From positions 124,001 to 188,000 of the forward strand of contig JBCCEW010000006.1 of the NCBI GenBank assembly GCA_039030075.1: 64,000 nt of DNA, given 5' to 3'. Shown here piece by piece: positions 20,907-60,909 of the stretch (the first letter of the stretch is position 1; each line of letters opens with the position of its first letter). The translations under genes and the position numbers were made by a program. The DNA is from Myxococcota bacterium. Its GTDB lineage: Bacteria > Myxococcota_A > UBA9160 > SMWR01. The notes beneath the pieces are model-generated. The model worked only from the letters and a program-made list of their open reading frames with translations. It was not told the DNA's origin and did no database searches.

Positions 20907-21069
20907 AAGCAGTCTCATCAACCCCTCCCGTCGCCTGGCACCCGCCTTCGACCCGATCTCTGTGTTGGAAAATTCGCCGTACCGCTCGGTACGCTTGCGA
21001 TTTCGCGCCTTGATCTCGGGCCGAATTCGAGCACCGGGCTCGGTCCAGGGTTAATGAGACTGCTTCTAG
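20903..21069. repeat. 167-bp element with 22-bp terminal inverted repeats
   Basis: Left arm 20903-20924 and right arm 21048-21069 are inverted complements at 21/22 positions (ctagaagcagtctcat-aaccc). The left arm carries the stop of the small basic protein gene and the right arm the stop of the ArsR gene. Inside is another near-palindrome around gtaccgctcggtac, flanked by complementary AAAT-TCGC and GCG-ATTT. It may be a bidirectional terminator or a MITE-like insertion. Confidence 0.7.
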
Positions 21070-21380
21070 CGCCCTCGCGCGGAGCGGCGCCGAGGGACTC
21101 CACCGCAGCAGTCGCGGGTCAGGAAGTCCAGCAGGCGCTGCATCTCCGCGAACTCCGGGCGGTAGATGCGCGAACGGCCGACGCGTTCGCAGGCCACCAG
21201 GCCGGCCGCCCGCAGCTCCTTCAGATGGAAGGAAAGGGTCGCCGAGGGGATCTCGAGGTGTTCGCTGATCTCCCCCGCGGCCAGCCCGTCCGGCCCCGCC
21301 TCGACGAGCAAACGAAACACGTCGAGCCGGGTCTCCTGAGCGAGCGCCGCCAACGCCGTCACGGCCTGGGTCGTTTCCAT
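21066..21380 (-). CDS. ArsR/SmtB family transcriptional regulator
   Basis: 104 aa. Winged helix-turn-helix: ALAQETRLDVFRLLVEAGPDGLAA, then the recognition helix IPSATLSFHLKELRAAGLV, and the wing RVGRSRIYRPEFAEM. The classic ELCVCDL metal site in the helix is absent; a Cys pair followed by Gly-Gly is near the C-terminus (DCCGG), as in many ArsR proteins linked to arsenic or redox sensing. It is divergent from the SDR gene (starts 123 bp apart), the obvious candidate target. Confidence 0.92.
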   Translation of the reverse strand: METTQAVTALAALAQETRLDVFRLLVEAGPDGLAAGEISEHLEIPSATLSFHLKELRAAGLVACERVGRSRIYRPEFAEMQRLLDFLTRDCCGGVPRRRSARGR

Positions 21381-21503
21381 CCTTCCAGCGTTCTAGAGAG
21401 GTCGACGGCTGTCAAGTCGCGGCCCCGGGCTCGCGCTTTCGTCGGGGTTGCCGCACGCTTCGGATTCCGGTGCAAGAGTGATTCCGGAGCAAGGAGGCCG
21501 CTC

Positions 21504-22313
21504 GTGAAGGACATCCTCGGCTACGCCGGGACCCGCTGTGTCGTCGTGGGCGCGGCGTCCGGTATGGGCGACGCCTGTGCGCGTACGCTGGTGGACATGG
21601 GGGCCGAGGTGATCGCCCTCGACATCGCGCCGATCACGGCCCCGGTAAAGCAATCGATCGAGGTCGATCTCGCGGATCCGGCGTCGATCGAAGCCGCGGT
21701 AGCGAAGATCGACGGCGAGATTCCAAAGCTCTTCGTGTGCGCCGGTGTCCCCGGGCCGCCGCGCTGGGACGCCCAGCAGACGATGGTCGTCAACTTCGTC
21801 GGCGTCCGAGCGATCACCGAAGCGCTCCTTCCTCAGGTGCCGCGCGGTGGTGCCGTCGCGTTGATCTCTTCGGTGGCCGGGATCGGCTACGCGAAGCAGC
21901 TCGAGAAGCTGAACGAGCTCTGCGCGACGCCGGACTTCGCCGCAGCGAAGGCCTGGTGCGAGGCCAACCCCGACGTGGCCACCGGGTATCTGGGATCGAA
22001 GCAGGCGCTGATCGTCTACACGAAGCGGCGCGCGTCGGAGCTCGTCGCCCGCGAAGTACGGATGAACTGTCTACTTCCGGCGCCGACCGACACCCAGATG
22101 CTCCCGACCTTCCACGGCCAGGCGGGCGGACAAGAGAACCTGGAGAAGTTCTTCCACGCGCCGATCGGCCGGAACGCGTCGCCCGAGGAGATGGCCGAGC
22201 CCCTGATCCTCTTGAACAGCGACGCGGCCCGGTTCTTGAGCGGCCACGATCTTCAGGTCGACTACGGCTACTGCGGCGAGGTCGACGTCGGCATCCGCCC
22301 GGGCCTGCTCTGA
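21504..22313 (+). CDS. SDR oxidoreductase, 3-alpha-hydroxysteroid dehydrogenase/carbonyl reductase-like
   Basis: 269 aa from GTG with AAGGAGG 6 nt upstream. Cofactor motif GAASGMG (residues 16-22); an N-terminal VIALDIAP pattern with Asp favours NAD(H). The catalytic Ser is in LISSVAG and Tyr/Lys are in TGYLGSKQAL. The overall layout, including the unusual KRRASELVAREVRMNCLLPAPTDT region and the C-terminal HDLQVDYGYCGEVDVG, is close to Comamonas-type 3-alpha-HSD/CR. It probably reduces or oxidises a hydroxyl or keto group on a steroid or similar substrate. Confidence 0.88.
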   Translation: MKDILGYAGTRCVVVGAASGMGDACARTLVDMGAEVIALDIAPITAPVKQSIEVDLADPASIEAAVAKIDGEIPKLFVCAGVPGPPRWDAQQTMVVNFVGVRAITEALLPQVPRGGAVALISSVAGIGYAKQLEKLNELCATPDFAAAKAWCEANPDVATGYLGSKQALIVYTKRRASELVAREVRMNCLLPAPTDTQMLPTFHGQAGGQENLEKFFHAPIGRNASPEEMAEPLILLNSDAARFLSGHDLQVDYGYCGEVDVGIRPGLL

Positions 22314-23869
22314 GCACAGCCTCCGAAGAAGAAGCCGTCGCTCTTGCCGTCGAACCCGAGGCCGACGGGGTCGGCGTCGCGTTCTGGGCGGCGCTGGCAG
22401 CGGTGACCGTCCTCGCTGCGTCGCCGCTGTGGTTCACGGCGCTGCCTCCGCTCCAGGACTACGCCTACCACCTGGCTCAGGTCGAGATCCTCGAGGCCGA
22501 CGCCGCGGCCTTTCCCGCCTTCGAACGGGACCTCGGCTTCCGTCCCTATGCGGCCTTCTATGCGCTGACGAGTGCGCTGTCGGGGGTCCTCCCGGTCGAG
22601 ACCGCGGGGCGCCTGGTGGTGACGCTCTACTTCGTGCTCCTCGCCGGAGTGCTCGCCGCCTGGGCCGTCGAAGCGCGTCGGCCGCTCTGGCCCGGCCTCG
22701 CGCTCCTGCCCTTCGCCGCGATCCAACCGACCTACGTCCTAGGGTTCCTCAACTACCAGCTCGCGATGCCGTTCCTGCTGGGAGGCCTCTGGGTATGGCC
22801 CCGCTTCGCGCGCCGCCCCAGCGTCGCAACGGCTTCCGTGCTCGCCGCCTGCATCGTCGGCCTCTTCACCACCCATCCGTTCAGCTACCTGGTCTTCCTG
22901 GGGTTCGCGGGGCTGCGACTCGTCTGGGAGGCCGACCTGCGCGCGCGCGTGGCCGGGTGGGGCGCCTGGACGCTCGCGACCGCGATCTTCGCCGCCTGGT
23001 TCCTGGCGGCAGACGGCGGTCAGGGGGCGTCCGGGCCCGAGGGGGTGCAGTGGCTCGGCGTTGCCGAGAGCCTCCGCATCCTCGCGCTGCCGTTCCTCGG
23101 GATGCACGCGGACCGGATCGATCCCGTCGTGGCGACGCTCTGGTGGGTGTGGTTCACGGGGCTCGCCTGGCTGTGGTGGCGCGCTCCCGAGCGGGTGTCC
23201 GACGAGGCGCGCTACTTCGCGCTCGCCTGTGCGATCGCCACGCTCGCGACGCTCGTCTTCCCTTTCCGGATGGGCCACTACAGCTACATCAACGCGCGGA
23301 TGCCCGGCGTCGCCATGCTGTGTCTCGCGATGGCGATCGCGCCACTACGCGTGCCACGCCCCTGGGCAGCGGCACATGTGCTGCTGCTCTGCGCTGCGCT
23401 TGGCGTGGCGGTGGCCCAGCAGCGGCGGGTCGGTGAGGCGATGGACGAGGTGCTGCCGCTCCTCGAGCAGGTACCGCGCGACGCCGCGCTGCTTCCCCTC
23501 GTCTTCGATCCGTACAGCGACGAACTCGACCCCCGGCTCTTCGCGCCCTTCCTCCACATCCACCACGCGGTCCACGTGCTGCAGGGTGGGGGCGTTACGC
23601 CGTACTTCTTTCCGCACCCGCTGGCTCCCGTCCGGTACGCGGAGGGGCAGCCTCCGCTCGCGCCACCCCAGTACCGCCCGGGTCGTTTCGAACTCGCTCG
23701 CCACGCAGGCTACGACCACTGGCTGTTGCGCAGTCCGCCACCGCGGGCGTGGTCCGCACTGTCTCGGTCCGGAACCGAGATCGCGCGCTCGGGGGACTGG
23801 GTCCTGCTGCGGCGCGAACCCTCAGCCGCGCCGGCGGAACAGTCGCCAACCCCGCCGTCCGGTTCCTAG
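22310..23869 (+). CDS. Polytopic membrane protein, GT-C-like, probable CTG start
   Basis: 519 aa counted from CTG 22310, which overlaps the SDR stop (CTGA). No ATG, GTG or TTG follows until after the first membrane helix has begun, so a CTG start is the simplest reading. About 10 hydrophobic segments are visible. The first outside loop holds an acidic/aromatic motif LQDYAYHL like the catalytic loops of GT-C glycosyltransferases. No family is recognised with confidence. The 3' end overlaps the convergent gene by 48 bp. Confidence 0.68.
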   Translation: MSTASEEEAVALAVEPEADGVGVAFWAALAAVTVLAASPLWFTALPPLQDYAYHLAQVEILEADAAAFPAFERDLGFRPYAAFYALTSALSGVLPVETAGRLVVTLYFVLLAGVLAAWAVEARRPLWPGLALLPFAAIQPTYVLGFLNYQLAMPFLLGGLWVWPRFARRPSVATASVLAACIVGLFTTHPFSYLVFLGFAGLRLVWEADLRARVAGWGAWTLATAIFAAWFLAADGGQGASGPEGVQWLGVAESLRILALPFLGMHADRIDPVVATLWWVWFTGLAWLWWRAPERVSDEARYFALACAIATLATLVFPFRMGHYSYINARMPGVAMLCLAMAIAPLRVPRPWAAAHVLLLCAALGVAVAQQRRVGEAMDEVLPLLEQVPRDAALLPLVFDPYSDELDPRLFAPFLHIHHAVHVLQGGGVTPYFFPHPLAPVRYAEGQPPLAPPQYRPGRFELARHAGYDHWLLRSPPPRAWSALSRSGTEIARSGDWVLLRREPSAAPAEQSPTPPSGS

Positions 23870-25324
23870 CTCGTCGAAGGCCGCATGGGCCTCGAGCTGG
23901 GCGGCCAGCCGCCCGGCACCGGGCATGTGCAGGCGTACCAGCACGAGGCGTGCTCCGTCGAAGGCGTTCGCGACGAGCCGGTCCGGGTTGGGGGAACGCC
24001 CTGCGTAGAGGCGACGGTAGGCCTCGAAGCGCTCGGGGGATCCGTCGAGCAGGAAGAGCAGGTTCATGCCCGCGACGTAGCGGTTGCGGTCGTTGTAGAA
24101 GAAGAGGGCGGGGAACGCGCCCCAGGGCGCGACCACGACCTCGTCGGGTTCACTGTGCTCGGCGATCGTGGCGGCAAGCGACGCGTAGGCCGCTGGCGGG
24201 TCGAGGGGCACTTCGTCGGTGTAGGTGTGCCAGGCGTTCCAGCCTGCGAAGCCCAACAGACCCAGCGCGAGCGCAGCCGTCGCGATGCCCGGGAACGGTC
24301 GGTAGCGGTGGACCAGGATCGGGAGCGCCAACATCGAAGCGACGCCGAACAGGTGCAGCAGCTTCGAGCCCGAGAGCGCGCTGTAGCCGAGCAGCGCGAA
24401 GCAGACCGCCGCGATCCCGAGGTCGCGCATGGTCATGCCGCCGCGACGCAGTTGCAGCGCCGCGAACGCCGCCCACACCACGATCGGTGCGAGGGCGAGG
24501 CGCAACCATTCGGCGGCGGGCAACGTGGCCCACTCGGAGCCGAGCTGGGCTCCCGCGACGAGGTCGCTCGGGCGGGCGTAGCTGCTCAGGAGTTCGCGCC
24601 CCATGTGCTGGACGAAGCTCCAGGGTTCGGGGCGCATCACGCTGCCCAGCGCGAATGCGAAGCCGGCAGCGGCCACGAGCGCCCAACCCTCGCGCTCGCG
24701 CCACCGTCCCGCGAAGACCACGAACAACACGCTCAAGCCGGGCAAGAGGATCGTGCCGACGTACGCGTAGGCCGCGAGCAGGGTGACGAGGAACACGCCG
24801 CGCGCACTCTCGCGCCAGAGGCAATGGAGGAACCAGGGGAAGAGCACGAAGAAGAGCGCGCCGCCCTTCAGCGTGCCGAGGTACAGCGTCACCAGCGGCG
24901 TGCCGAGCGTCATCACCGCCGTCCACAGGCCGGCCGACGGCACCTGCCAGCGTCGCAGAATCGCGTAGACGCTGAACACGAAGGCGAGTGCGAAGCCGGT
25001 GCCGGAGAGGCGCAGCACGGTCTCGGGTTGTGCGAGTCCGTGCAGGGGGGCCATCAGCGCATGGAACGCGACGTAGGCGTTCGGGAAGTCGCGCAGCGTC
25101 GTGAAGGGCAACCAGGGAAACGCGTCGATCCAGCCGCGCTCCCAGAGGAGCTGAGCGCATTTCACGTGGTAGTAGGAGTCGGGGTTCGGCAGGAAGCCCG
25201 GGCGCGAGAAGGTCGCCACGATCCAGGCGACCGGCGCCAACAGGAAGAGCGGGTCGAGGCGGCGCAACAGGCCCACGACCGGGGCGTCCGCCTCGGCCCC
25301 CACACCCTGCTTTCCCACCGACAC
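23822..25324 (-). CDS. GT-C type membrane glycosyltransferase
   Basis: 500 aa with about 11 membrane segments. The first outside loop reads NPDSYYHVKCAQLLWERGW, which closely resembles the D-x-Y-Y-H motif of STT3/PglB and ArnT/PMT-type enzymes that move sugars from polyprenyl phosphate. The C-terminal soluble part begins near residue 370. It shares 48 bp of antisense sequence with the upstream convergent gene. The acceptor (protein, lipid or glycan) is unknown. With the next gene it forms a leftward pair with a 9-bp gap. Confidence 0.75.
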   Translation of the reverse strand: MSVGKQGVGAEADAPVVGLLRRLDPLFLLAPVAWIVATFSRPGFLPNPDSYYHVKCAQLLWERGWIDAFPWLPFTTLRDFPNAYVAFHALMAPLHGLAQPETVLRLSGTGFALAFVFSVYAILRRWQVPSAGLWTAVMTLGTPLVTLYLGTLKGGALFFVLFPWFLHCLWRESARGVFLVTLLAAYAYVGTILLPGLSVLFVVFAGRWREREGWALVAAAGFAFALGSVMRPEPWSFVQHMGRELLSSYARPSDLVAGAQLGSEWATLPAAEWLRLALAPIVVWAAFAALQLRRGGMTMRDLGIAAVCFALLGYSALSGSKLLHLFGVASMLALPILVHRYRPFPGIATAALALGLLGFAGWNAWHTYTDEVPLDPPAAYASLAATIAEHSEPDEVVVAPWGAFPALFFYNDRNRYVAGMNLLFLLDGSPERFEAYRRLYAGRSPNPDRLVANAFDGARLVLVRLHMPGAGRLAAQLEAHAAFDELGTGRRGWRLFRRRG

Positions 25325-25333
25325 GGCCGCAGC

Positions 25334-26695
25334 TTACCCCGAAGCGCCGGCGTCGGCCGAGGCTTCGGCGGCTGTTTGCTGCGAGGCGACCGCGTCGAGG
25401 GCCCAGAAGACGAACAGCGTCAGCAGCGGGCTGAGCGGGAGCAGGTAGCGGAAGTAGAAGGCCGCGAGGAGGTAGGGCAGCAGGAAGGAGCCGTAGAGCA
25501 CGACCGCGCACACTTGCAGGCGTGTCAGGCGCCCGCGACGCAACGCGAGCACGATCAGGAGCCCCACGCAGGGGAGTGCCATCACCAGGCTGGTGATCGG
25601 CGGCTGGTTCCCCTCGTAGCGTGGTCGGTAGGGCTTGTAGAAGAGCGTGGCCGCCTTGAACCGGTTCAGCGCCTTCGACGCGACCGTTCCCGGCTCCGCG
25701 CGAAAGGCTTCACCGAAGCGCTCCGCGTAGAGGTCGATGAAGGCGGGCTCACCGAGCCGGCGGTACTCGTGGTTGGCGTCCCGGCGCGCCGCGATGACCG
25801 GATGGCGCAGCAGGAAAGGCTCGTCGTAGACGCCGTCTGGGCTCACGTAGTTCGCCTGGTAGAGGTCGTAGGCCAGGTTCGACTTGACGAGCACGAGCTC
25901 ACCGAACACGAGTGCGTTGCGCGCCACCCAGCCCGACACGACGGTGGCCGATACCAGCGCCGCAATCACCAGCAGACGGGGCGCCCGCCGCACGACCGCC
26001 AGGAAGAGCGTCAGGGCGCCCCAGCTCGCCCCGGCGATCGGGCTCGATAGCGCGGTGGCGCCGCCTAGGAGCCCCCAACCCGCCGCTTCCTTGTCGCTGA
26101 GATCCTGGTCCGAAAGGCGCAGCGCCCCCCACAAGATCCCATTGATCCACAGGAGCACCCACCAGATGTCGTGCGTGATCTGGAAGAACCAGGCGAAGTG
26201 GGTGGCGATCCAGACTCCGAAGAGCACGAGCGCGAGTGCCGGCGGGAGTCGGCGTCGTGTGCGGTGTGCCCATTCCCAGACCACCGCACCACTCGCCACC
26301 AGCGTCAGGTTCTTGCAGAGGACGATGAGGACGGCGACGGCGACCGGGCTCCCCGTGAGCATCAGGAGCAGGGCGAGGAACCCGGGGTAGAGCGGGGGCA
26401 TCCAGGCGGTCGGACCACTCTCGACGAAGAAGGGGTCGCTGAAGCCGCGCCCGGCCACCAGCGCCTGGGCGATGCTCCAGTTCTCGGCCCCGAGATGAAG
26501 GTTGGCGTTGATGTCGACCCCGGCCAGGAAGGGCGGGAAGAAGCGCAGGCCCGCCGGTCTCTCGACCCAGAACGAGGCATTCGCGTAGAGCGAGAGCACC
26601 GCCACGAAGGCGGCGAGCCCGAGGAGGGCCGCGCGACGCGAGACGCCACTCAACGCGGTGTCTCGACACCCGGGGCGGTGGGAGACTCGGCGCAA
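25334..26695 (-). CDS. Glycosyltransferase family 39-like membrane protein
   Basis: 453 aa, about 11 hydrophobic segments. The N-terminal loop contains GVDINANLHLGAENWSIAQ followed by GRGFSDPFF, which is the usual beginning of PMT/GT39-like proteins, and a middle helix has THDIWWVLLWINGILWG. It probably uses a polyprenyl-phosphate sugar on the periplasmic side. It is upstream of the other GT-C gene in the same leftward operon. I see no glycan-cluster context. Confidence 0.72.
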   Translation of the reverse strand: MRRVSHRPGCRDTALSGVSRRAALLGLAAFVAVLSLYANASFWVERPAGLRFFPPFLAGVDINANLHLGAENWSIAQALVAGRGFSDPFFVESGPTAWMPPLYPGFLALLLMLTGSPVAVAVLIVLCKNLTLVASGAVVWEWAHRTRRRLPPALALVLFGVWIATHFAWFFQITHDIWWVLLWINGILWGALRLSDQDLSDKEAAGWGLLGGATALSSPIAGASWGALTLFLAVVRRAPRLLVIAALVSATVVSGWVARNALVFGELVLVKSNLAYDLYQANYVSPDGVYDEPFLLRHPVIAARRDANHEYRRLGEPAFIDLYAERFGEAFRAEPGTVASKALNRFKAATLFYKPYRPRYEGNQPPITSLVMALPCVGLLIVLALRRGRLTRLQVCAVVLYGSFLLPYLLAAFYFRYLLPLSPLLTLFVFWALDAVASQQTAAEASADAGASG

Positions 26696-26811
26696 GAGCG
26701 AGCGATCACGGACGCAGTCTACCGCTTGTGCTGAGCCCAGCGCGGGCGGGTGTCGCTCGCCTGGGGGCGCGCTATACCGCCCGCTCGGCGTTCGAGCCTA
26801 GGAGGGGATTC

Positions 26812-27561
26812 TTGTCGCGCATTCGACGTCTCGTACACCGTGGTCGCATCGGCATGGCCGTCGCGCTCGCCGGGTTGGCCACCGGCTGCGCCGAGCTGGG
26901 TATCGACCCCGCGCTCGTCGAAGAGCTGTTGCAGATCCGCGGGGCCGGACTCTCCGAGTCCCAGATCGCGTCGGGCCTGAAGGAGGCGCTGAAGGTCGGC
27001 ACCGAGCGGACCGTGACGCGCACCGCGCGCCAGGGGGGCTTCCTCGACAACCCCCTGGTGCGGATCGTCTTGCCCGATGAACTCGCCGAGATCGCCGATC
27101 GGCTGCGGTCGATCCATCTGGGTGGCCCCGCCGACGAACTCGAAGTGGCGATGAACCGCGCCGCGGAGCGGGCCTCGGCGGAGGCGAAGACGATCTTCTG
27201 GGACGCCGTGACGAGCATGACCATCCAGGACGCCGTGCGGATCCTGAACGGTCCGGACGACGCGGCGACCGTCTACTTCCGCTCCCGCACCGAGGACGCG
27301 CTGCGTTCGCGCTTCTCGCCCGTGGTATCCGCAGCCATGGAGCAGGTCGGGCTCTATCGTGCCTACGACGAACTCGTGACGCGCAGCCGGGTGCTATCGC
27401 TCTTCGCGGATCCCACAGTCGAGCTCAACCGGTACGTGACCGACGAAGCCCTCGACGGACTGTTCACGATCCTCCGCGAGGAGGAGCAGCGCATCCGCCG
27501 CGACCCGGCCGCACGCACCACCGAGCTGCTCCGCCAGGTCTTCGGCGGGCTCGGGGGCTAG
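26812..27561 (+). CDS. DUF4197 family lipoprotein
   Basis: 249 aa from TTG 26812 with GGAGGGG 4 nt upstream. An n-region with several Arg is followed by MAVALAGLATGC, a lipobox, so the protein is probably a lipoprotein. The rest matches DUF4197: SESQIASGLKEALKVGTERTV, FLDNPLVRIVLP, DAVTSMTIQDAVRILNG and the C-terminal YVTDEALDGLFTILREEE. No function is known for the family. ATG 26854 is an alternative start that would still keep the lipobox. Confidence 0.85.
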   Translation: MSRIRRLVHRGRIGMAVALAGLATGCAELGIDPALVEELLQIRGAGLSESQIASGLKEALKVGTERTVTRTARQGGFLDNPLVRIVLPDELAEIADRLRSIHLGGPADELEVAMNRAAERASAEAKTIFWDAVTSMTIQDAVRILNGPDDAATVYFRSRTEDALRSRFSPVVSAAMEQVGLYRAYDELVTRSRVLSLFADPTVELNRYVTDEALDGLFTILREEEQRIRRDPAARTTELLRQVFGGLGG

Positions 27562-27669
27562 CCGGCGGAGCGCGGCCGCGGTTGGGCGTCCCCACTTGGC
27601 GCTCTCTCGACGCCCCGGGAACGACGCCAACCGGGCTAAACTCGGCGCGCCGACAACCGAGGAGAGGTC

Positions 27670-28092
27670 ATGCCGAGCGTCTTCACCCAGATCATCGAGG
27701 GCAAGCTGCCGGGCCGTTTCGTCTGGAAGGACGACCAGGCGGTGGCGTTCCTGACGATCAACCCGGTGAAGCCGGGACACACCCTGGTCGTGACCCGCCA
27801 GGAGGTCGATCACTGGATCGATCTGCCGCCCGCGCTCGCGGCCCACGTCATGACCGTGTGTCACGGCGTCGGACGCGCAATCCAGCAGGCCTTCCAGCCG
27901 ACGCGGGTGGGCCAGGCGATCGTCGGGATCGAGGTGCCGCACGTCCACGTGCATCTGGTCCCGATCGATGCCATCGGCGATCTCGACTTCTCGAGGGCGG
28001 ATGCCAACCCCAAGCCCGGGGACCTCGACGCCGCGGCCGAGAAGATCCGCGCGGCCCTGCGCGACCTGGGCTACGCCGAGGTGTCCGCCTAG
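27670..28092 (+). CDS. HIT family nucleotide hydrolase
   Basis: 140 aa with GAGGAG 5 nt before ATG. The histidine triad H91-V-H93-V-H95 is intact (VPHVHVHLVP), and an N-terminal FTQIIEGKLPGRFVW matches Hint/FHIT-type hydrolases that act on nucleoside phosphoramidates or adenylates. It is the first gene of a probable three-gene run with the lipoprotein and outer-membrane protein genes. Confidence 0.93.
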   Translation: MPSVFTQIIEGKLPGRFVWKDDQAVAFLTINPVKPGHTLVVTRQEVDHWIDLPPALAAHVMTVCHGVGRAIQQAFQPTRVGQAIVGIEVPHVHVHLVPIDAIGDLDFSRADANPKPGDLDAAAEKIRAALRDLGYAEVSA

Positions 28093-28110
28093 CGCGGCCA
28101 GGAACTCGCC

Positions 28111-28770
28111 GTGCATCTCGAAGACCAGTACCAACGCCGGAGGTCGCGAGGCCCGAGGGCCCTCTGGGCCCTGCTGGCACTCGGCGTGGCGTCCGGCTGT
28201 GTCGCGCCCGAGGCCGCCTTCCTCGATTCGCCCTATGAGAACGAGGAGGGCGAGGCAGCTCCGATCGTTCCCATACGCGACTGCGAGTTCATGACTGTCT
28301 GGATCGACTACTCGCGCCAGGGCAATCCCGAGATCGGAGCCCGGATCGCCGGCGCGATGGCCGATGCCTTCGAGGAGCTCGGGACCGACATCGCGAGCAG
28401 CCCCAGCCGGGCCTACTGGGTCGTCGAGATCCTCGCGGCCGACAACGGTCGCCGCGACGGGTACATCTACAGCGCCTTCGTGAAGCCGCAGCTCGCGATC
28501 GAGGGGGCACGGCCGGGTCGCACCGTGTTCCGCAAGCGAGCCGACGACGACGACGAACCCGGCGACACGGGCATCGGTGCCATCGACTTCTACAACGGCC
28601 TCGCTTTCGGCCCCTACGACCAGGTCGAACCCCAGGCCGTCCAGTTCGTCCGCAACGCCTACGTCGCGATCTACCCGACGGCGAAGGAGCTCTGCGACTT
28701 CGTGGACGAGCAGCGCCAGCGCGAGGACGAGCTCGACCGCCAGGTGCCCGGGCCGCCGGAGCCGCTCTGA
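28111..28770 (+). CDS. Putative lipoprotein of unknown function
   Basis: 219 aa from GTG. After a basic start, the hydrophobic segment ALWALLALGVASGC ends in a lipobox. The mature part has a mixed alpha/beta pattern with MTVWIDYSRQGNPEIGARIAGAM, AYWVVEILAADNGRRDGYIYSAF and a very acidic loop (about residue 140). No family recognised. Its stop overlaps the CTG start of the next gene. Confidence 0.7.
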   Translation: MHLEDQYQRRRSRGPRALWALLALGVASGCVAPEAAFLDSPYENEEGEAAPIVPIRDCEFMTVWIDYSRQGNPEIGARIAGAMADAFEELGTDIASSPSRAYWVVEILAADNGRRDGYIYSAFVKPQLAIEGARPGRTVFRKRADDDDEPGDTGIGAIDFYNGLAFGPYDQVEPQAVQFVRNAYVAIYPTAKELCDFVDEQRQREDELDRQVPGPPEPL

Positions 28771-29621
28771 GTTCGCGCCTCGTCGCCGCCGGCGCGCGCC
28801 TCGCAAGCCGGTGCGCGATCGGGATCGGCGGCGTCGTCGCGGCGGGGCTCCTATCGGCGTCGGCCGGCGCCGAAGACCGCGGCCGTGTGACCCTGGGGCT
28901 CGGCTACGACTGGAGCCGCGGCGATTACGACGCCCGTCCGAGTCGGACGACCGAGATCCAGTTCGCGACGCTCTCGCTGGCCTATCTCAGCCCCGAGCTG
29001 CCCCTCACGAAGGGCGCACACGATTGGCTCGAGATCCGCGCGACTCTGCCCGTGGTGGAGGTGTCCGGGCCGGGTTCGGTGGACCGCGTCGGCAGCTTCG
29101 TCGGCGGCGCGCCGCGCAACACCGAACGTCAGCGCGGGCTGGGAGACGTGGTGCTGCGCGGGAGCTATTTCGTCGCCGCGCCGAGGGAGTCCTGGCTTCC
29201 GAACGTCGACGTGTCGGCGCAGGTCAAGTTTCCGACCGCCGACGCCAGCCGTGGCCTCGGGACCGGGCGGACCGACGTCACCGTCGAACTCGGGGTATCG
29301 CGCCGCTTCGGCCCCTTCACGCCCTTCGGGAGCATCGGTCGCCGCTTCATGGGCGAGCCGCGTTTCGTGCGCCTGGTGGATCGCTGGCTCGCGAGCGGAG
29401 GCGTGAGCTGGCGGCTGCACGAGGCCCTCACGGTCGGCGTCCTCTACGACTGGCGACACGCGGCGCAGCCCGGCAACGAGCACGCCAACGAAATCGTCGC
29501 CTTCTCCTGGTGGCGCGCGCGTCCCGGGCTGCGGTTCGGTCCGTATGCCGTGGCGGGACTCACCGAGGGCAGTCCCGACTACGCGCTGGGCGCCCAGCTG
29601 CGACTCGATTGGAACCCCTGA
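28767..29621 (+). CDS. Putative outer-membrane beta-barrel protein, probable CTG start
   Basis: 284 aa counted from CTG 28767, whose TG is shared with the previous stop. The signal peptide runs from this codon (about 35 residues, ending ASAGA) and is lost if the next usable start, GTG 28887, is taken. GGAG lies 5 nt before the CTG. The mature chain alternates hydrophobic and polar residues and shows paired strands such as GRVTLGLGYDWSRG, PNVDVSAQVKFPT and TDVTVELGVSRRFG, ending in an aromatic-terminated strand, as expected of a small outer-membrane barrel. Confidence 0.78.
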   Translation: MSSRLVAAGARLASRCAIGIGGVVAAGLLSASAGAEDRGRVTLGLGYDWSRGDYDARPSRTTEIQFATLSLAYLSPELPLTKGAHDWLEIRATLPVVEVSGPGSVDRVGSFVGGAPRNTERQRGLGDVVLRGSYFVAAPRESWLPNVDVSAQVKFPTADASRGLGTGRTDVTVELGVSRRFGPFTPFGSIGRRFMGEPRFVRLVDRWLASGGVSWRLHEALTVGVLYDWRHAAQPGNEHANEIVAFSWWRARPGLRFGPYAVAGLTEGSPDYALGAQLRLDWNP

Positions 29622-33519: not shown

Positions 33520-34257
33520 CTAGGCGCGCCAGCGCACCCGCAGCGCCGCGTTCTCGCCGTCGGGGAGCTCGACGCACTCGATCAGCCCGATCTCGCCGCG
33601 GAACTGGGCCTCCTCCGCGATCCGGGCCTTGAAGACCTCGGCGAGGTCGCGGGTCAGGACCCACAAGGAAAGTTCGCTGGGGCCGCGCTCGCGCTTCGGA
33701 ATCCCCAGCTGGAGGTCGAAGCGGGCATCCTGGCCGACGCGATTCTTCAGCACATGACGCCCCAGTCGCGCCATCTGGAAGGGGGGCGACAACTCGGCCA
33801 GACAGTTCAAGCCGCGGAGCAGCAACACGAAGGGCGAGTCCTCGCCCTCGGGATCGGTCACGCCGAAGACCAGGCTCTCGCGCCCCTGGCGAACGCCCAC
33901 GAAGTCCACGCCGCTGCGTTCGAGCGCCGGGTGCTGCTCCCCGGCTACGGGCGCGAACGCACCGCTCAAGCAGGTGATGGTCTCGGTCTTCGGTCCCATC
34001 TGGGAGTGCAGCTCGAGGGAGTCGAAGTAGGGCTCGAGCACGATCTCGGCGAGGCTCGCTTCGAGTCGTTCGTCCTCGCGTTCGGGATCGAGCTTTCCTT
34101 CGACCTGGTAGTACGACTCGAGGAACTCGGCGACGAGCACGTCGGGAAAGTGCAAGTAGTCGGCGCACTCCTCGATTTGCGCAGCGAGATCCAGCGATCG
34201 GCTGCGCTCGAAACGCAGCCGGAACGGTGTGTCGAGGGTGAGATCGGCGGGAAACAG
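33520..34257 (-). CDS. Uncharacterised protein upstream of BtrH-like gene (start uncertain)
   Basis: 245 aa if started at CTG 34257, which has GGAG 8 nt upstream; other in-frame starts would run into the divergent carboxylase gene. The chain has a Glu/Asp-rich N-terminal half (KLDPEREDERLEASLAEIV) and a regular sheet pattern (VDFVGVRQGRESLVFGV, PFVLLLRGLNCLAEL, ARFDLQLGIPK). No family recognised and no membrane segment. Location suggests joint function with the BtrH-like protein. Start uncertainty keeps confidence moderate. Confidence 0.6.
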   Translation of the reverse strand: MFPADLTLDTPFRLRFERSRSLDLAAQIEECADYLHFPDVLVAEFLESYYQVEGKLDPEREDERLEASLAEIVLEPYFDSLELHSQMGPKTETITCLSGAFAPVAGEQHPALERSGVDFVGVRQGRESLVFGVTDPEGEDSPFVLLLRGLNCLAELSPPFQMARLGRHVLKNRVGQDARFDLQLGIPKRERGPSELSLWVLTRDLAEVFKARIAEEAQFRGEIGLIECVELPDGENAALRVRWRA

Positions 34258-34401
34258 AGTGAGGGCTCCGGAGGGCGGCTCCTGGCGATTCGGACGATCT
34301 CGCCTCCAGATTGAGCCCCAGGGGAGGAAGCGTGCGGGACCCGGCAGAACTGTGGCATCTCTAGGGGTTCCGGAATTTCCCCCGGCCCCAAGCGAGTCCC
34401 C

Positions 34402-37400
34402 ATGCCCCACCAGAGCCTGTTGGTCGCCAACCGCGGCGAGATCGCCATTCGCGTGATGCGCGCCGCTGCCGCACGCGGGTTGCGGAGCGTCGCGGTGTTC
34501 TCGGAAGACGAGAGGGACGCACTTCACGTGCGCAAGGCCGATGCCGCTGAGGCCCTCTCTGGGGAGGGAGCCGCGGCCTACCTGGACCCCGACGCGCTGG
34601 TCGCGGCGGCACAGCGCGCGGGCTGCGATGCGGTCCACCCGGGCTACGGCTTCTTGTCAGAGAGCGCCGCGTTCGCCGAGCGCTGCAGCGCCGCCGGGTT
34701 GACCTTCGTGGGGCCGACACCCGGAGCCCTCGAACTCTTCGGCGACAAGGCGCGTGCCCGCGCCCTCGCAATCGAGTGCGGCGTGCCGGTCATCGAAGGC
34801 ACCGAGGGCGCCACCACCCTCGAAGATGCGAGGGCCTTCCTCGCTTCGCTCGGCCCGGGCGCGTCGGCGATGATCAAGGCGATCTCCGGGGGCGGGGGGC
34901 GCGGCGTGCGGCCCGTACATTCGGTCGAGGAGCTCGAGAAAGCGTTCGCACGCTGCTCGAGCGAAGCCGCGGCTGCGTTCGGCAACGGGGATCTCTACGT
35001 CGAGCGTTGGCTGCCCTCCGCGCGTCACGTCGAGGTGCAGATCGCCGGTGACGCCGCGGGCGAGCTGGTCCACTTCGGCGAACGCGAGTGCAGCACCCAG
35101 CGGCGACACCAGAAGCTGATCGAGCTCGCGCCGGCCCCGTGGTTGGAGGACGGGCTGCGTCAGCGCATCTGGGACGCGGCGATCGCGCTCGGTCGCGCCG
35201 CCGGATACACCGGGGTGGGCACCATCGAGTTCCTGGTGGACGCCACGCGACCCGACGCGTTCACCTTCATGGAGGCGAACGCCCGCCTCCAGGTCGAACA
35301 CACGGTGACCGAGGAGGTCACCGGCGTCGATCTCGTGTCCCTGCAGCTCGATCTCGCCGAAGGGCGCTCGCTCGCCGAGCTGGGGTTCTCGCAGCCCGAG
35401 ATTCCCCGGGCGCGCGGCCACGCGATCCAGCTGCGCATCAACACCGAGAAGCTGCGCAAGAAGGACGGTCTCGCGCTGCCCGCCTCGGGAACGCTGACCG
35501 CCTTCGAACCGCCGGGCGGGTTGGGCGTGCGCGTCGATACGGCCGGCCACGTCGGCTATCAGACGAATCCGCGCTTCGACTCCCTGCTCGCGAAGCTGGT
35601 CGTGCACTCGCCGTCGCGCGATTTCACCGATGCGTTGAACCGCGCCTACCGCGCGCTCTGCGAGTTCCGCATCGAGGGGATCCAGACCAACCGCGGACTC
35701 TTGCAGGCCCTGGTGAAGCATCCGGCCTTCGCGGCCCAGGAGATCACGACGCGGTTCGTGGAAGAGCACGCGGCCGAACTGGTCGCCGCCGCCGACGACG
35801 AGCACGCTCGCCTCCACGCCGAGTCGGCCCCGCCAGCGTCCCCTGCGCCCTCGACCGCGACGCCGCGGGCCGGGGCCCAGACCGTGGGCGCCCAGATCGA
35901 CGCCAGCGATCCCCTCGCCGTTCTCGATCACGGCAAATCGACGGGCGCCGCCGTTTCCGCCCCGACCGCACCTGCCCCGGCGCTGGCCGAAGCGGCCTCG
36001 GGCCCGCCGGGGACGGTGGCCCAGCGCGCTCCCTTGCAGGGGACGATCGTCAGCGTGGCGGTGGCACCGGGAGATGCCGTGGCGGCAGGCGCTCCGCTCC
36101 TCGTGCTCGAAGCCATGAAGATGGAGCACGTGATCGAAGCCGATCGCAGTGGCGTGGTCCGGGCCATTCCCGTGCGCGAGGGCGACACCGTCGCGGAGGA
36201 TCACCCGCTGGTGTTCCTCGAAGAGGCGGATGTCGCGGCCGAGCGGCGAGACGACGCGTCCGCCGCGGATCTCGATCGGATCCGTCCGGATCTGGCCGAG
36301 GCCCTCGAGCGCCATGCGGTCGGGCACGACGAACGGCGCCCGGACGCGGTGGCGCGTCGCCGCAAGACCGGGCAGCGCACGGCGCGAGAGAACATCGCCG
36401 ATCTCTGCGATGCCGAGAGCTTCATTGAGTACGGACCGCTGGCCCTCGCCGCCCAGCGTCGGCGTCGCACCCTCGAAGACCTGATCGAGAAGACGCCGGG
36501 CGATGGACTCGTCGCGGGTGTCGGCACCGTGAATGCCGAGGCCTTCGGAGAGGAGCGCGCCCGCTGCATGGTGCTCTCCTACGACTACACCGTGCTTGCC
36601 GGGACCCAGGGGCTGCAGAACCACCGCAAGAAGGACCGCATGTTCGAGCTCGCCGAGCAGTGGCGTTTGCCCGTCGTGTTCTTCACCGAGGGCGGCGGTG
36701 GCCGGCCGGGGGACACGGATGGCGCTGGTGTCGCGGGGCTCGACTGCTGGGCCTTCGCGTACTGGGGAAAGCTCTCCGGGCTGGTGCCGATGGTGGGCAT
36801 CAACTCGGGACGCTGCTTTGCCGGGAACGCAGCGCTCCTCGGCTGCTGCGACGTCGTGATCGCCACCGCCAACTCGAACATCGGCATGGGCGGTCCGGCC
36901 ATGATCGAGGGCGGCGGGCTCGGCGTGTTCCGGCCCGAGGAAGTCGGCCCGATGACCGACCAGGTCCCGAATGGCGTCGTCGACATCGCCGTCGAGGACG
37001 AGGCCGAAGCGGTCGAGGTGGCGAAGCAGTACCTCGCGTACTTCCAGGGGCCGCTCGACAGCGGGGACGCCGGGGACCCGCGCCTGCTGCGCCAGGTGAT
37101 CCCCGAGAACCGGCTGCGCATCTACGACGTGCGCCGCGTGATCGAACTACTGGCCGACACGGGCAGCGTGCTCGAGCTGCGGCGCGGTTTCGGTCACGGC
37201 ATGGTGACGGCGCTGGCCCGCATCGAGGGCCGGCCGATGGGGATCCTCGCGAACAACCCCCAGCATCTCGCAGGAGCGATCGACAGCGCGGGGGCCGACA
37301 AGGCGGCGCGTTTCATGCAGCTCTGCGACGCCCACGATCTCCCGATCCTCTTCCTCTGCGACACGCCCGGCATCATGGTCGGCCCCGAGGTCGAGAAGAC

Positions 37401-37836
37401 CGGGTTGGTGCGGCACGCGGCGCGCATGTTCGTGACCGGGGCGAGCCTGACGGTGCCGTTCTTCACGATCGTTCTGCGCAAGGGCTACGGCCTCGGCGCC
37501 CAGGCCATGGCCGGGGGCAGCTTCAAGGCGCCGATGTTCACCGTGGCCTGGCCAACCGGCGAGTTCGGCGGAATGGGCCTCGAAGGCGCCGTCAAGCTCG
37601 GGTACCGCAACGAGCTCGCGGCCGAGACCGATCCCGAGAAGCGTCGTGCCCTCTTCGACGAAATGGTCGCCCGCATGTACGAGCACGGGAAGGGCGTGAA
37701 CATGTCGTCGGTCTTCGAGATCGACGACGTGATCGATCCGGCCGACTCCCGGCGCTGGATCCTCCGGGCGCTGGCGTCGGTTCCGCCGAGTCCGCCCCGG
37801 ACCGAGAAGAAGCGACCCTGCATCGACACCTGGTAG
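34402..37836 (+). CDS. Single-chain acyl-CoA carboxylase (biotin carboxylase, BCCP and carboxyltransferase fused)
   Basis: 1144 aa. Residues 1-450 are biotin carboxylase: VANRGEIAIRVMRAA at the start, ATP-grasp loop KAISGGGGRGVRPV near residue 160, and HFGERECSTQRRHQKLIE. A Pro/Ala linker follows, then the biotinyl domain with Lys573 in LEAMKMEH. Residues about 640-1130 are the carboxyltransferase, with AGTQGLQNHRKKDR and VFFTEGGGGRPGD. One chain for all steps is the layout of long-chain acyl-CoA carboxylases; acetyl-, propionyl- and geranyl-CoA are also possible substrates. No accB/accD partners are adjacent. Confidence 0.93.
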   Translation: MPHQSLLVANRGEIAIRVMRAAAARGLRSVAVFSEDERDALHVRKADAAEALSGEGAAAYLDPDALVAAAQRAGCDAVHPGYGFLSESAAFAERCSAAGLTFVGPTPGALELFGDKARARALAIECGVPVIEGTEGATTLEDARAFLASLGPGASAMIKAISGGGGRGVRPVHSVEELEKAFARCSSEAAAAFGNGDLYVERWLPSARHVEVQIAGDAAGELVHFGERECSTQRRHQKLIELAPAPWLEDGLRQRIWDAAIALGRAAGYTGVGTIEFLVDATRPDAFTFMEANARLQVEHTVTEEVTGVDLVSLQLDLAEGRSLAELGFSQPEIPRARGHAIQLRINTEKLRKKDGLALPASGTLTAFEPPGGLGVRVDTAGHVGYQTNPRFDSLLAKLVVHSPSRDFTDALNRAYRALCEFRIEGIQTNRGLLQALVKHPAFAAQEITTRFVEEHAAELVAAADDEHARLHAESAPPASPAPSTATPRAGAQTVGAQIDASDPLAVLDHGKSTGAAVSAPTAPAPALAEAASGPPGTVAQRAPLQGTIVSVAVAPGDAVAAGAPLLVLEAMKMEHVIEADRSGVVRAIPVREGDTVAEDHPLVFLEEADVAAERRDDASAADLDRIRPDLAEALERHAVGHDERRPDAVARRRKTGQRTARENIADLCDAESFIEYGPLALAAQRRRRTLEDLIEKTPGDGLVAGVGTVNAEAFGEERARCMVLSYDYTVLAGTQGLQNHRKKDRMFELAEQWRLPVVFFTEGGGGRPGDTDGAGVAGLDCWAFAYWGKLSGLVPMVGINSGRCFAGNAALLGCCDVVIATANSNIGMGGPAMIEGGGLGVFRPEEVGPMTDQVPNGVVDIAVEDEAEAVEVAKQYLAYFQGPLDSGDAGDPRLLRQVIPENRLRIYDVRRVIELLADTGSVLELRRGFGHGMVTALARIEGRPMGILANNPQHLAGAIDSAGADKAARFMQLCDAHDLPILFLCDTPGIMVGPEVEKTGLVRHAARMFVTGASLTVPFFTIVLRKGYGLGAQAMAGGSFKAPMFTVAWPTGEFGGMGLEGAVKLGYRNELAAETDPEKRRALFDEMVARMYEHGKGVNMSSVFEIDDVIDPADSRRWILRALASVPPSPPRTEKKRPCIDTW

Positions 37837-60833: not shown

Positions 60834-60909
60834 TGGAGCCGACGAGCGGATTTGAACCGCTGACCTGCTGATTACGAATCAGCTGCTCTACCAACTGAGC
60901 TACGTCGGC
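60834..60909 (-). tRNA. tRNA-Thr (anticodon CGU)
   Basis: 76 nt cloverleaf on the minus strand: acceptor GCCGACG/CGTCGGC, D-arm GCTC...GAGC, anticodon stem GCTGA/TCAGC with loop TTCGTAA (anticodon CGT), and T-arm with GGTTCAAATCC. The CCA end is encoded (60836-60834), discriminator T. The anticodon reads ACG. It is a single, stand-alone tRNA. Confidence 0.97.

Follow-up and report, generated by a model that had tools for sequence, protein, structure and literature searches.

CTG as a probable rare start codon in a Myxococcota genome and its order

We analysed a window of 64,000 nucleotides (the whole stretch of DNA under study; G+C 69%) from the genome of an uncultured Myxococcota bacterium (G000:C6:124001-188000, contig JBCCEW010000006.1; genome of 5.76 Mb in 55 contigs), with a focus on three genes, named here by their putative first base as 22310, 28767 and 34257, that lack an in-frame ATG, GTG or TTG fitting their N-terminus and appear to begin at CTG. 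Comparison with the remainder of the genome and with related genomes indicates, with a probability of about 0.8, that CTG does serve, though rarely, as a start codon in this bacterium and in the order it belongs to; roughly six of the 923 complete genes sampled would use it.

Three genes in the window lack a usable canonical start

The genes and features of the locus are the following.

21054 to 22313, plus strand: gene of the short-chain dehydrogenase type (Pfam adh_short_C2 and adh_short) upstream of 22310, ending CTG CTC TGA.
22310 to 23869, plus strand: predicted multi-pass membrane protein of 519 codons, with a putative CTG start based on score loss and a 4-nt overlap (CTGA) with the preceding gene.
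22403 to 22405, plus strand: GTG at codon 32 of 22310, the sole canonical alternative near its N-terminus, within the first hydrophobic segment and without a Shine-Dalgarno sequence.
28111 to 28770, plus strand: gene of 219 codons upstream of 28767, of no family in a profile search, with PEPL as its C-terminus before the stop.
28758 to 28761, plus strand: GGAG located 5 nt ahead of CTG 28767, read from the sequence, which also codes for part of the upstream PEPL.
28767 to 29621, plus strand: predicted outer-membrane barrel-type protein of 284 codons with a signal-peptide-like N-terminus and a putative CTG start in a CTGA overlap.
33520 to 34257, minus strand: gene of no known family, 245 codons, uncoupled, with its own Shine-Dalgarno sequence and a putative CTG start based on score and orthologue.
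34266 to 34269, minus strand: GGAG located 8 nt ahead of CTG 34257, read from the sequence.

An earlier note on this DNA had proposed that 22310 and 28767 contain no ATG, GTG or TTG that would keep the N-terminus, and that each begins at a CTG sharing TG with the preceding stop. Both observations hold: CTG 22310-22312 overlaps TGA 22311-22313, CTG 28767-28769 overlaps TGA 28768-28770, and the next canonical codons lie at codon 32 and at codon 41 (GTG 28887), respectively. Upstream, the frame of 22310 contains GTGs only at -118 and -191 codons, both within the preceding gene, and that of 28767 contains no canonical codon. The GGAG reported 5 nt ahead of 28767 is likewise present, at 28758-28761. 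For the third candidate, the note was right about the GGAG (34269-34266, at a spacing of 8), but the gene, starting at CTG 34257-34255, lies on the minus strand and has no stop-start overlap, and no called gene overlaps it from upstream on that strand; its first downstream canonical codon is TTG 34155 (codon 35), and GTGs are found upstream at -51, -90 and -127. The labels of membrane and outer-membrane protein given to 22310 and 28767 could not be confirmed: they derive from inspection by eye, and neither protein has a Pfam or NCBIfam match.

Starts were scored with a purpose-written gene caller based on codon usage, the score being the coding signal lost when a start is forced to ATG, GTG or TTG. 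The sample, 1.264 Mb with 923 complete genes, comprised the window and 60 other stretches of this genome. Forcing a canonical start cost 7.9 units in 34257, 7.2 in 22310 and 5.7 in 28767, placing them at ranks 9, 13 and 27 of 923, and starting at CTG cost 0.5, 1.7 and 0.5 units, respectively. In a smaller first sample (464 kb, 361 genes), the same three genes ranked 3, 7 and 12. The deficit of canonical starts in the three window genes exceeds chance, and the coding boundary appears to lie at or near the CTG in each of them.

Canonical codons do exist farther into these genes, and translation could in principle begin at GTG 22403, GTG 28887 and TTG 34155, with the preceding coding-like stretch left untranslated. 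The best canonical starts nevertheless carry the losses of 7.2, 5.7 and 7.9 units, respectively; starting at the three codons just named would remove the signal-peptide-like N-terminus or cut the hydrophobic segment, and these codons have no Shine-Dalgarno sequence and lie downstream of the starts of the orthologues described below. Extended to meaB, the same explanation would cost that protein 53 residues, and we consider it quite improbable.

The orthologue of 34257 in G001, a same-genus relative used for comparison, shares 61% identity and has a stop just upstream; its only start is a TTG aligned with this CTG, located 6 nt after GGGAG. Such an orthologue start at the aligned place is seen for 34257 and not for 22310 or 28767. 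On these sequence features, CTG 34257 is very likely the true start of its gene.

Putative CTG starts elsewhere in the genome

In the 1.264-Mb sample, junctions at which the start codon of the next gene shares its last two bases with a TGA (NTGA) have A, G, C and T as the preceding base in 58, 58, 21 and 10 cases, respectively, and those lacking another canonical start number 36, 36, 4 and 6. Thus no canonical start is available at four of the 21 CTGA junctions, against none of the 29 matching TAG junctions. Among 36 orphan-start genes, CTGs have a Shine-Dalgarno sequence ahead of them in 5 of 20 cases, compared with 29 of 327 for other codons (p = 0.035), a modest enrichment.

Six CTG starts were counted among the 923 genes: those of 22310, 28767, 34257, meaB, thiE and a family-2 glycosyltransferase, set beside 382 ATG, 185 GTG and 52 TTG starts that could be confidently placed. 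Pfam confirms the MeaB, TMP-TENI/ThiE, ThiG, B12-binding and Glycos_transf_2 assignments, and the first canonical codon after the CTG is codon 54 in meaB, 33 in thiE and 38 in the glycosyltransferase. The latter (L087:7748, plus strand) has GGAG 7 nt upstream of its CTG, and its relative in G003 has an ATG one codon ahead of the aligned position. The suggestion that CTG starts, CTGA overlaps included, are used repeatedly is thus supported by the coding-signal ranks and, most of all, by the conservation in meaB and thiG-thiE presented below.

The overlaps of both 22310 and 28767 fall, as the earlier note had pointed out, inside the octamer GCTCTGAG, which consists of a last Leu codon CTC, the TGA and AG. 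Its interpretation as a signal found no support: the octamer has 2 matches against a shuffle mean of 4.16, and 90 of 100 shuffles reach 2. We rejected it as a conserved regulatory motif, because it does not rise above chance and the other CTG starts have different contexts (TTCTGA in ThiE, CGCTGCC in MeaB and CGCTGGA in the glycosyltransferase).

Separately, an AhpD-like open reading frame (ORF; identified by eye) at L037:8059 (minus strand) lies right after a stop, with no canonical start for 36 codons, and is likely a split or frameshifted gene.

The putative CTG start of meaB is conserved across the order

In the genome under study, meaB, encoding the B12-associated GTPase, appears to begin at a CTG (L069:7391-7389, minus strand) located 8 nt before the stop of an overlapping B12-binding gene, and its next canonical codon, at position 54, is close to the nucleotide-binding loop. 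In 27 of 30 meaB loci, the stop of the upstream gene is preceded by an in-frame CTG at a distance of 5 or 8 nt, and the same holds for 5 of 7 more (32/37); the set leaves out 3 of 40 genomes that had only weaker, paralogue-like matches. In 16 of the 30 loci, there is no ATG, GTG or TTG between codons -40 and +15, and an exact GGAG lies 4-10 nt upstream of the CTG in 22 of 27. As the loci share descent, these counts do not represent independent events.

The C and T of this CTG are bases 2 and 3 of a codon of the overlapping gene (GCT, ACT, CCT or TCT), whose amino acid varies among Ala, Thr, Pro and Ser. The third base of that codon is T in 27 of the 30 loci, a count that uses all 30 since 27/27 among loci selected for CTG would be circular; among 165 fourfold codons nearby, taken from the 27 CTG-bearing loci, T is found in 5. 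Codons ending in T make up only 4.6% (GCT), 2.5% (ACT) and 3.6% (CCT) of those for their amino acid in this genome. Because a wobble T is this rare, the overlapping B12-binding protein cannot explain the conservation of the CTG, and this pattern of codon use indicates that selection is acting on the CTG itself, beyond the needs of the overlapping gene.

These data also bear on the possibility that the genes require no start of their own and are instead expressed as fusions with the upstream protein, the ribosome shifting frame close to the stop. The genes do overlap in shifted frames, and MeaB-type GTPases are elsewhere fused to B12 domains. No slippery run was seen, however, at the junctions of 22310, 28767 and meaB; frameshifting would need neither the wobble T of GCT, ACT and CCT nor the ATG that G027 meaB carries exactly at the CTG place, 8 nt before the stop; and the explanation is inapplicable to 34257, given that no overlapping upstream gene was called on its strand. 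Frameshifting thus has only a very slim chance of being correct.

Returning to CTG initiation, a pattern search across the order in which the CTG columns were unconstrained (79 genomes, with matches in 34, some of them by chance) recovered CTG in families f1, f2, f3, f6, f8 and f10. Canonical meaB starts appear in families f4 and f5: the outgroup G027 has the ATG mentioned above, and in G020 a GTG is found one codon downstream of the CTG place. In a collection of named organisms, 76 of the best 80 meaB-like loci kept have a canonical codon between -40 and +10 codons, but this range is wide and most of the loci are distant MeaB relatives, so that the collection serves as a rough outgroup only. 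Three of the four loci without a canonical codon (L171, L173 and L174) are order-like meaB genes with CTG at the conserved place, and the fourth (L234, Janibacter) has a CTG at -14. Another named locus, L172, presents GTG at the codon aligned with the CTG. The named loci with an order-like meaB start region are CALDCK010000051 (uncultured bacterium), JAFDET010000098 and JAFDBP010000013 (metagenome-assembled genomes labelled Deltaproteobacteria).

CTGA is maintained at the thiG-thiE junction

The CTG of thiE (thiamine synthase; L041:17237-17235, minus strand) overlaps the TGA of thiG in a CTGA. CTGA is retained in many relatives. Of 65 rows listed, 50 loci were examined, and the end of ThiG could be read in 45. 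With thiE in the frame that permits NTGA, thiG ends in TGA at 24 loci and in TAG at 3, against 9 and 9 in the other frame (p = 0.0055). A canonical thiE start is missing at 16 of the 24 loci with CTGA in frame, versus 4 of the 21 others (p = 0.0015); at the other 8 CTGA loci, a canonical codon does occur within range and in most cases follows the CTG. Judged from these stop-codon and frame biases, selection is maintaining CTGA at thiG-thiE.

Initiation machinery and other near-cognate starts

The initiator tRNA gene (G000:C26:1552-1625, minus strand) encodes the normal three G-C pairs (GGG/CCC stem) and a CTCATAA loop. The pattern for this normal stem matches 17 of 20 genomes, including G000, and has no match in G011, G017 and G023. 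With a normal stem in G000, an altered anticodon stem of the initiator tRNA was rejected as the cause of CTG use. The gene infC, encoding initiation factor 3 (IF3), has a single match in the genome (L321 on C10, minus strand), and its only sensible start is an ATC behind AGGA, with GGAGGG also upstream. Genes for IF3 in other bacteria start at near-cognate codons as well, AUU being the classical case, and the apparent ATC start here presumably fits an intact IF3 feedback. Two further genes may make similar use of near-cognate codons behind a Shine-Dalgarno sequence: the lipoprotein-like gene L066:13062 (minus strand), with ATC, and the membrane gene L034:1803, resembling apolipoprotein N-acyltransferase by eye, with ATT.

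Such codons raise the question of whether a nearby ATC, ATT or GTC could be the true start of the window genes, with the CTG incidental. Besides infC, L066:13062 and L034:1803, the ATCs at codons 18 and 20 of 28767 are compatible with this view. A start at ATC in 28767 would nevertheless drop the arginines of the n-region, the nearest in-frame ATC, ATT or ATA lies at -105 and +59 codons in 22310 and at -18 and +27 in 34257, and selection in meaB is on the CTG. We therefore deem this explanation very improbable.

CTG initiation in this genome can be set beside several known systems. AUG, GUG and UUG make up 82, 14 and 4% of the starts in 69 genomes, and the initiator tRNA can pair with CUG, but poorly (PMC11497404); an ancestral AUG has changed to CUG in 2 of 61,358 starts (PMC5622118). 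Initiator-tRNA variants of the anticodon stem discriminate less against CUG (PMC11497404), and show that fMet-tRNA can pair with CUG in the P site, but the initiator tRNA here has a normal stem and loop. Rare near-cognate starts such as CUG, or the AUU of infC, are likewise one base from AUG and use the ordinary initiator tRNA, and infC seems to have a near-cognate start here too; the difference is that one gene, meaB, has held on to CTG in eight families or more. Termination-reinitiation at ATGA and GTGA (PMC10666635, PMC6728339) has the same geometry and 4-nt overlap, and the own-genome sample holds 58 junctions of each; in the CTGA cases, the first base is instead C. Short overlaps of this kind mediate translational coupling (PMC10666635). 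A literature search, with subscription papers mostly outside its coverage, turned up no bacterial lineage described as having conserved CTG starts. Term searches did not find CTG in the coupling texts PMC10666635 and PMC6728339, nor CUG or noncanonical starts in the review PMC12548453.

Evidence against CTG initiation

Several observations weigh against CTG as a start codon, in the window genes or more generally. There is no Shine-Dalgarno sequence ahead of CTG 22310. The GGAG before 28767 is constrained by the coding of the upstream protein: the upstream gene of G001 ends CCGGAGCCGCTCTAG, where GGAG and GCTCT likewise encode the conserved PEPL C-terminus, and because this GGAG is kept in G001 even though the two genes are separated there, it constitutes weak evidence for a Shine-Dalgarno sequence. 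Within the own-genome sample, one of the four CTGA junctions without a canonical start (L053:4961) has an ATG one codon downstream, leaving 22310, 28767 and thiE, and two of the five CTGs preceded by a Shine-Dalgarno sequence (L035 and L089) look like false gene calls. In G017, a genome of the same order (400 kb, 307 complete genes), a Shine-Dalgarno sequence precedes 0 of 10 orphan CTGs and no CTGA junction lacks a canonical start, in an assembly that has runs of N adjoined by several of its 25 orphan genes. Among the 32 CTG-bearing meaB loci, five (G014, G006, G005, G037 and G026) also have a nearby upstream ATG or TTG or an adjoining ATG. CTG accounts for 0.03% in a mycobacterial selection for leadered starts and is a very poor start there (PMC4633059). 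Lastly, since the initiator tRNA is ordinary, no change in the machinery accounts for CTG tolerance, and a weak start that depends on context is a simpler reading than general tolerance of CTG.

Also in G017, the orphan-start gene L165:2926 resembles release factor 2 by eye, and probably reflects the known programmed frameshift, an example of the other kinds of gene that the orphan scan can recover.

The G001 orthologues add to these objections. The earlier note had named, as counting against CTG, the case that orthologues use an ordinary start codon elsewhere in the gene, and such starts were found for two of the genes: the orthologue of 22310 (46% identity) begins at an ATG equivalent to codon 15 and that of 28767 at an ATG equivalent to codon 12, both uncoupled, as opposed to the aligned TTG of the 34257 orthologue. 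Given that codons 15 and 12 are not start codons here, this denotes a different start in G001, not proof that CTG is unused in our genome, but it does make the two coupled CTGs of the window less certain when taken singly. In G001, a 146-codon ORF separates the 22310 orthologue from the upstream gene, whose dehydrogenase product is 78.8% identical to ours. The 28767 pair is in turn separated by about 300 bp (G001:C190:12299-12602), which include a fragment resembling, by eye, a response-regulator receiver domain.

The extra sequence that G001 has at both junctions would also suit a scenario in which the two window genes are broken, their real start having been deleted, and are no longer made. 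Strong codon bias and frames that stay open for 519 and 284 codons speak against it, however, and we consider this scenario unlikely. Under CTG initiation, the extra sequence in G001 suggests that the two coupled junctions may be young, and they would be either pairs newly joined by deletion here or ancestral ones that were split in G001. On the combined sequence evidence, CTG is the likely true start of 28767, with good confidence, and the probable start of 22310.

Proposed mechanism and implications

We propose that the initiator tRNA, with its normal CAU anticodon, would start on CTG and insert fMet, and that it might do so by two routes. In the first, initiation would take place de novo behind a Shine-Dalgarno sequence (34257, meaB and the family-2 glycosyltransferase). 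In the second, termination would be followed by reinitiation, with the ribosome at the TGA slipping back one base onto the CTG of CTGA (22310, 28767 and thiE). A stop-start overlap or near-overlap within one operon is observed in 22310, 28767 and thiE, as CTGA, and in meaB, where the CTG lies 8 nt before the TGA. Initiation at these codons is presumably weak, and coupling may act at CTGA.

A broader hypothesis, which we put forward tentatively and at less than even odds, is that, in particular genes of this order, CTG constitutes a fourth start codon under purifying selection. Under this hypothesis, meaB and thiE would have kept CTG over at least eight families for the sake of a weak, IF3-sensitive start that sets a low ratio to the B12-binding protein and ThiG, and new CTG starts would arise where deletions create CTGA.

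The order-wide CTG starts of meaB and thiE, as read from sequence conservation, are more interesting than the window cases. A start codon that is strongly avoided in other lineages but held for so long in two metabolic genes offers a natural test of selection on weak starts for dosage, and the same genes can test whether stop-start coupling relaxes the demands on the start codon. Standard gene callers allow only ATG, GTG and TTG, so that genes starting at CTG will be annotated as truncated or missed; in such an annotation, the MeaB and ThiE proteins of our bacterium would come out 53 and 32 residues too short, respectively.

Other features of the window

The start of the dehydrogenase gene upstream of 22310 is itself uncertain, with ATG 21054 and GTG 21504 as candidates. 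Elsewhere in the window, positions 34402-37836 encode a fusion of 1144 codons combining biotin carboxylase, a biotinyl domain and carboxyltransferase, and a tRNA-Thr gene (CGT) is found on the minus strand at 60834-60909.

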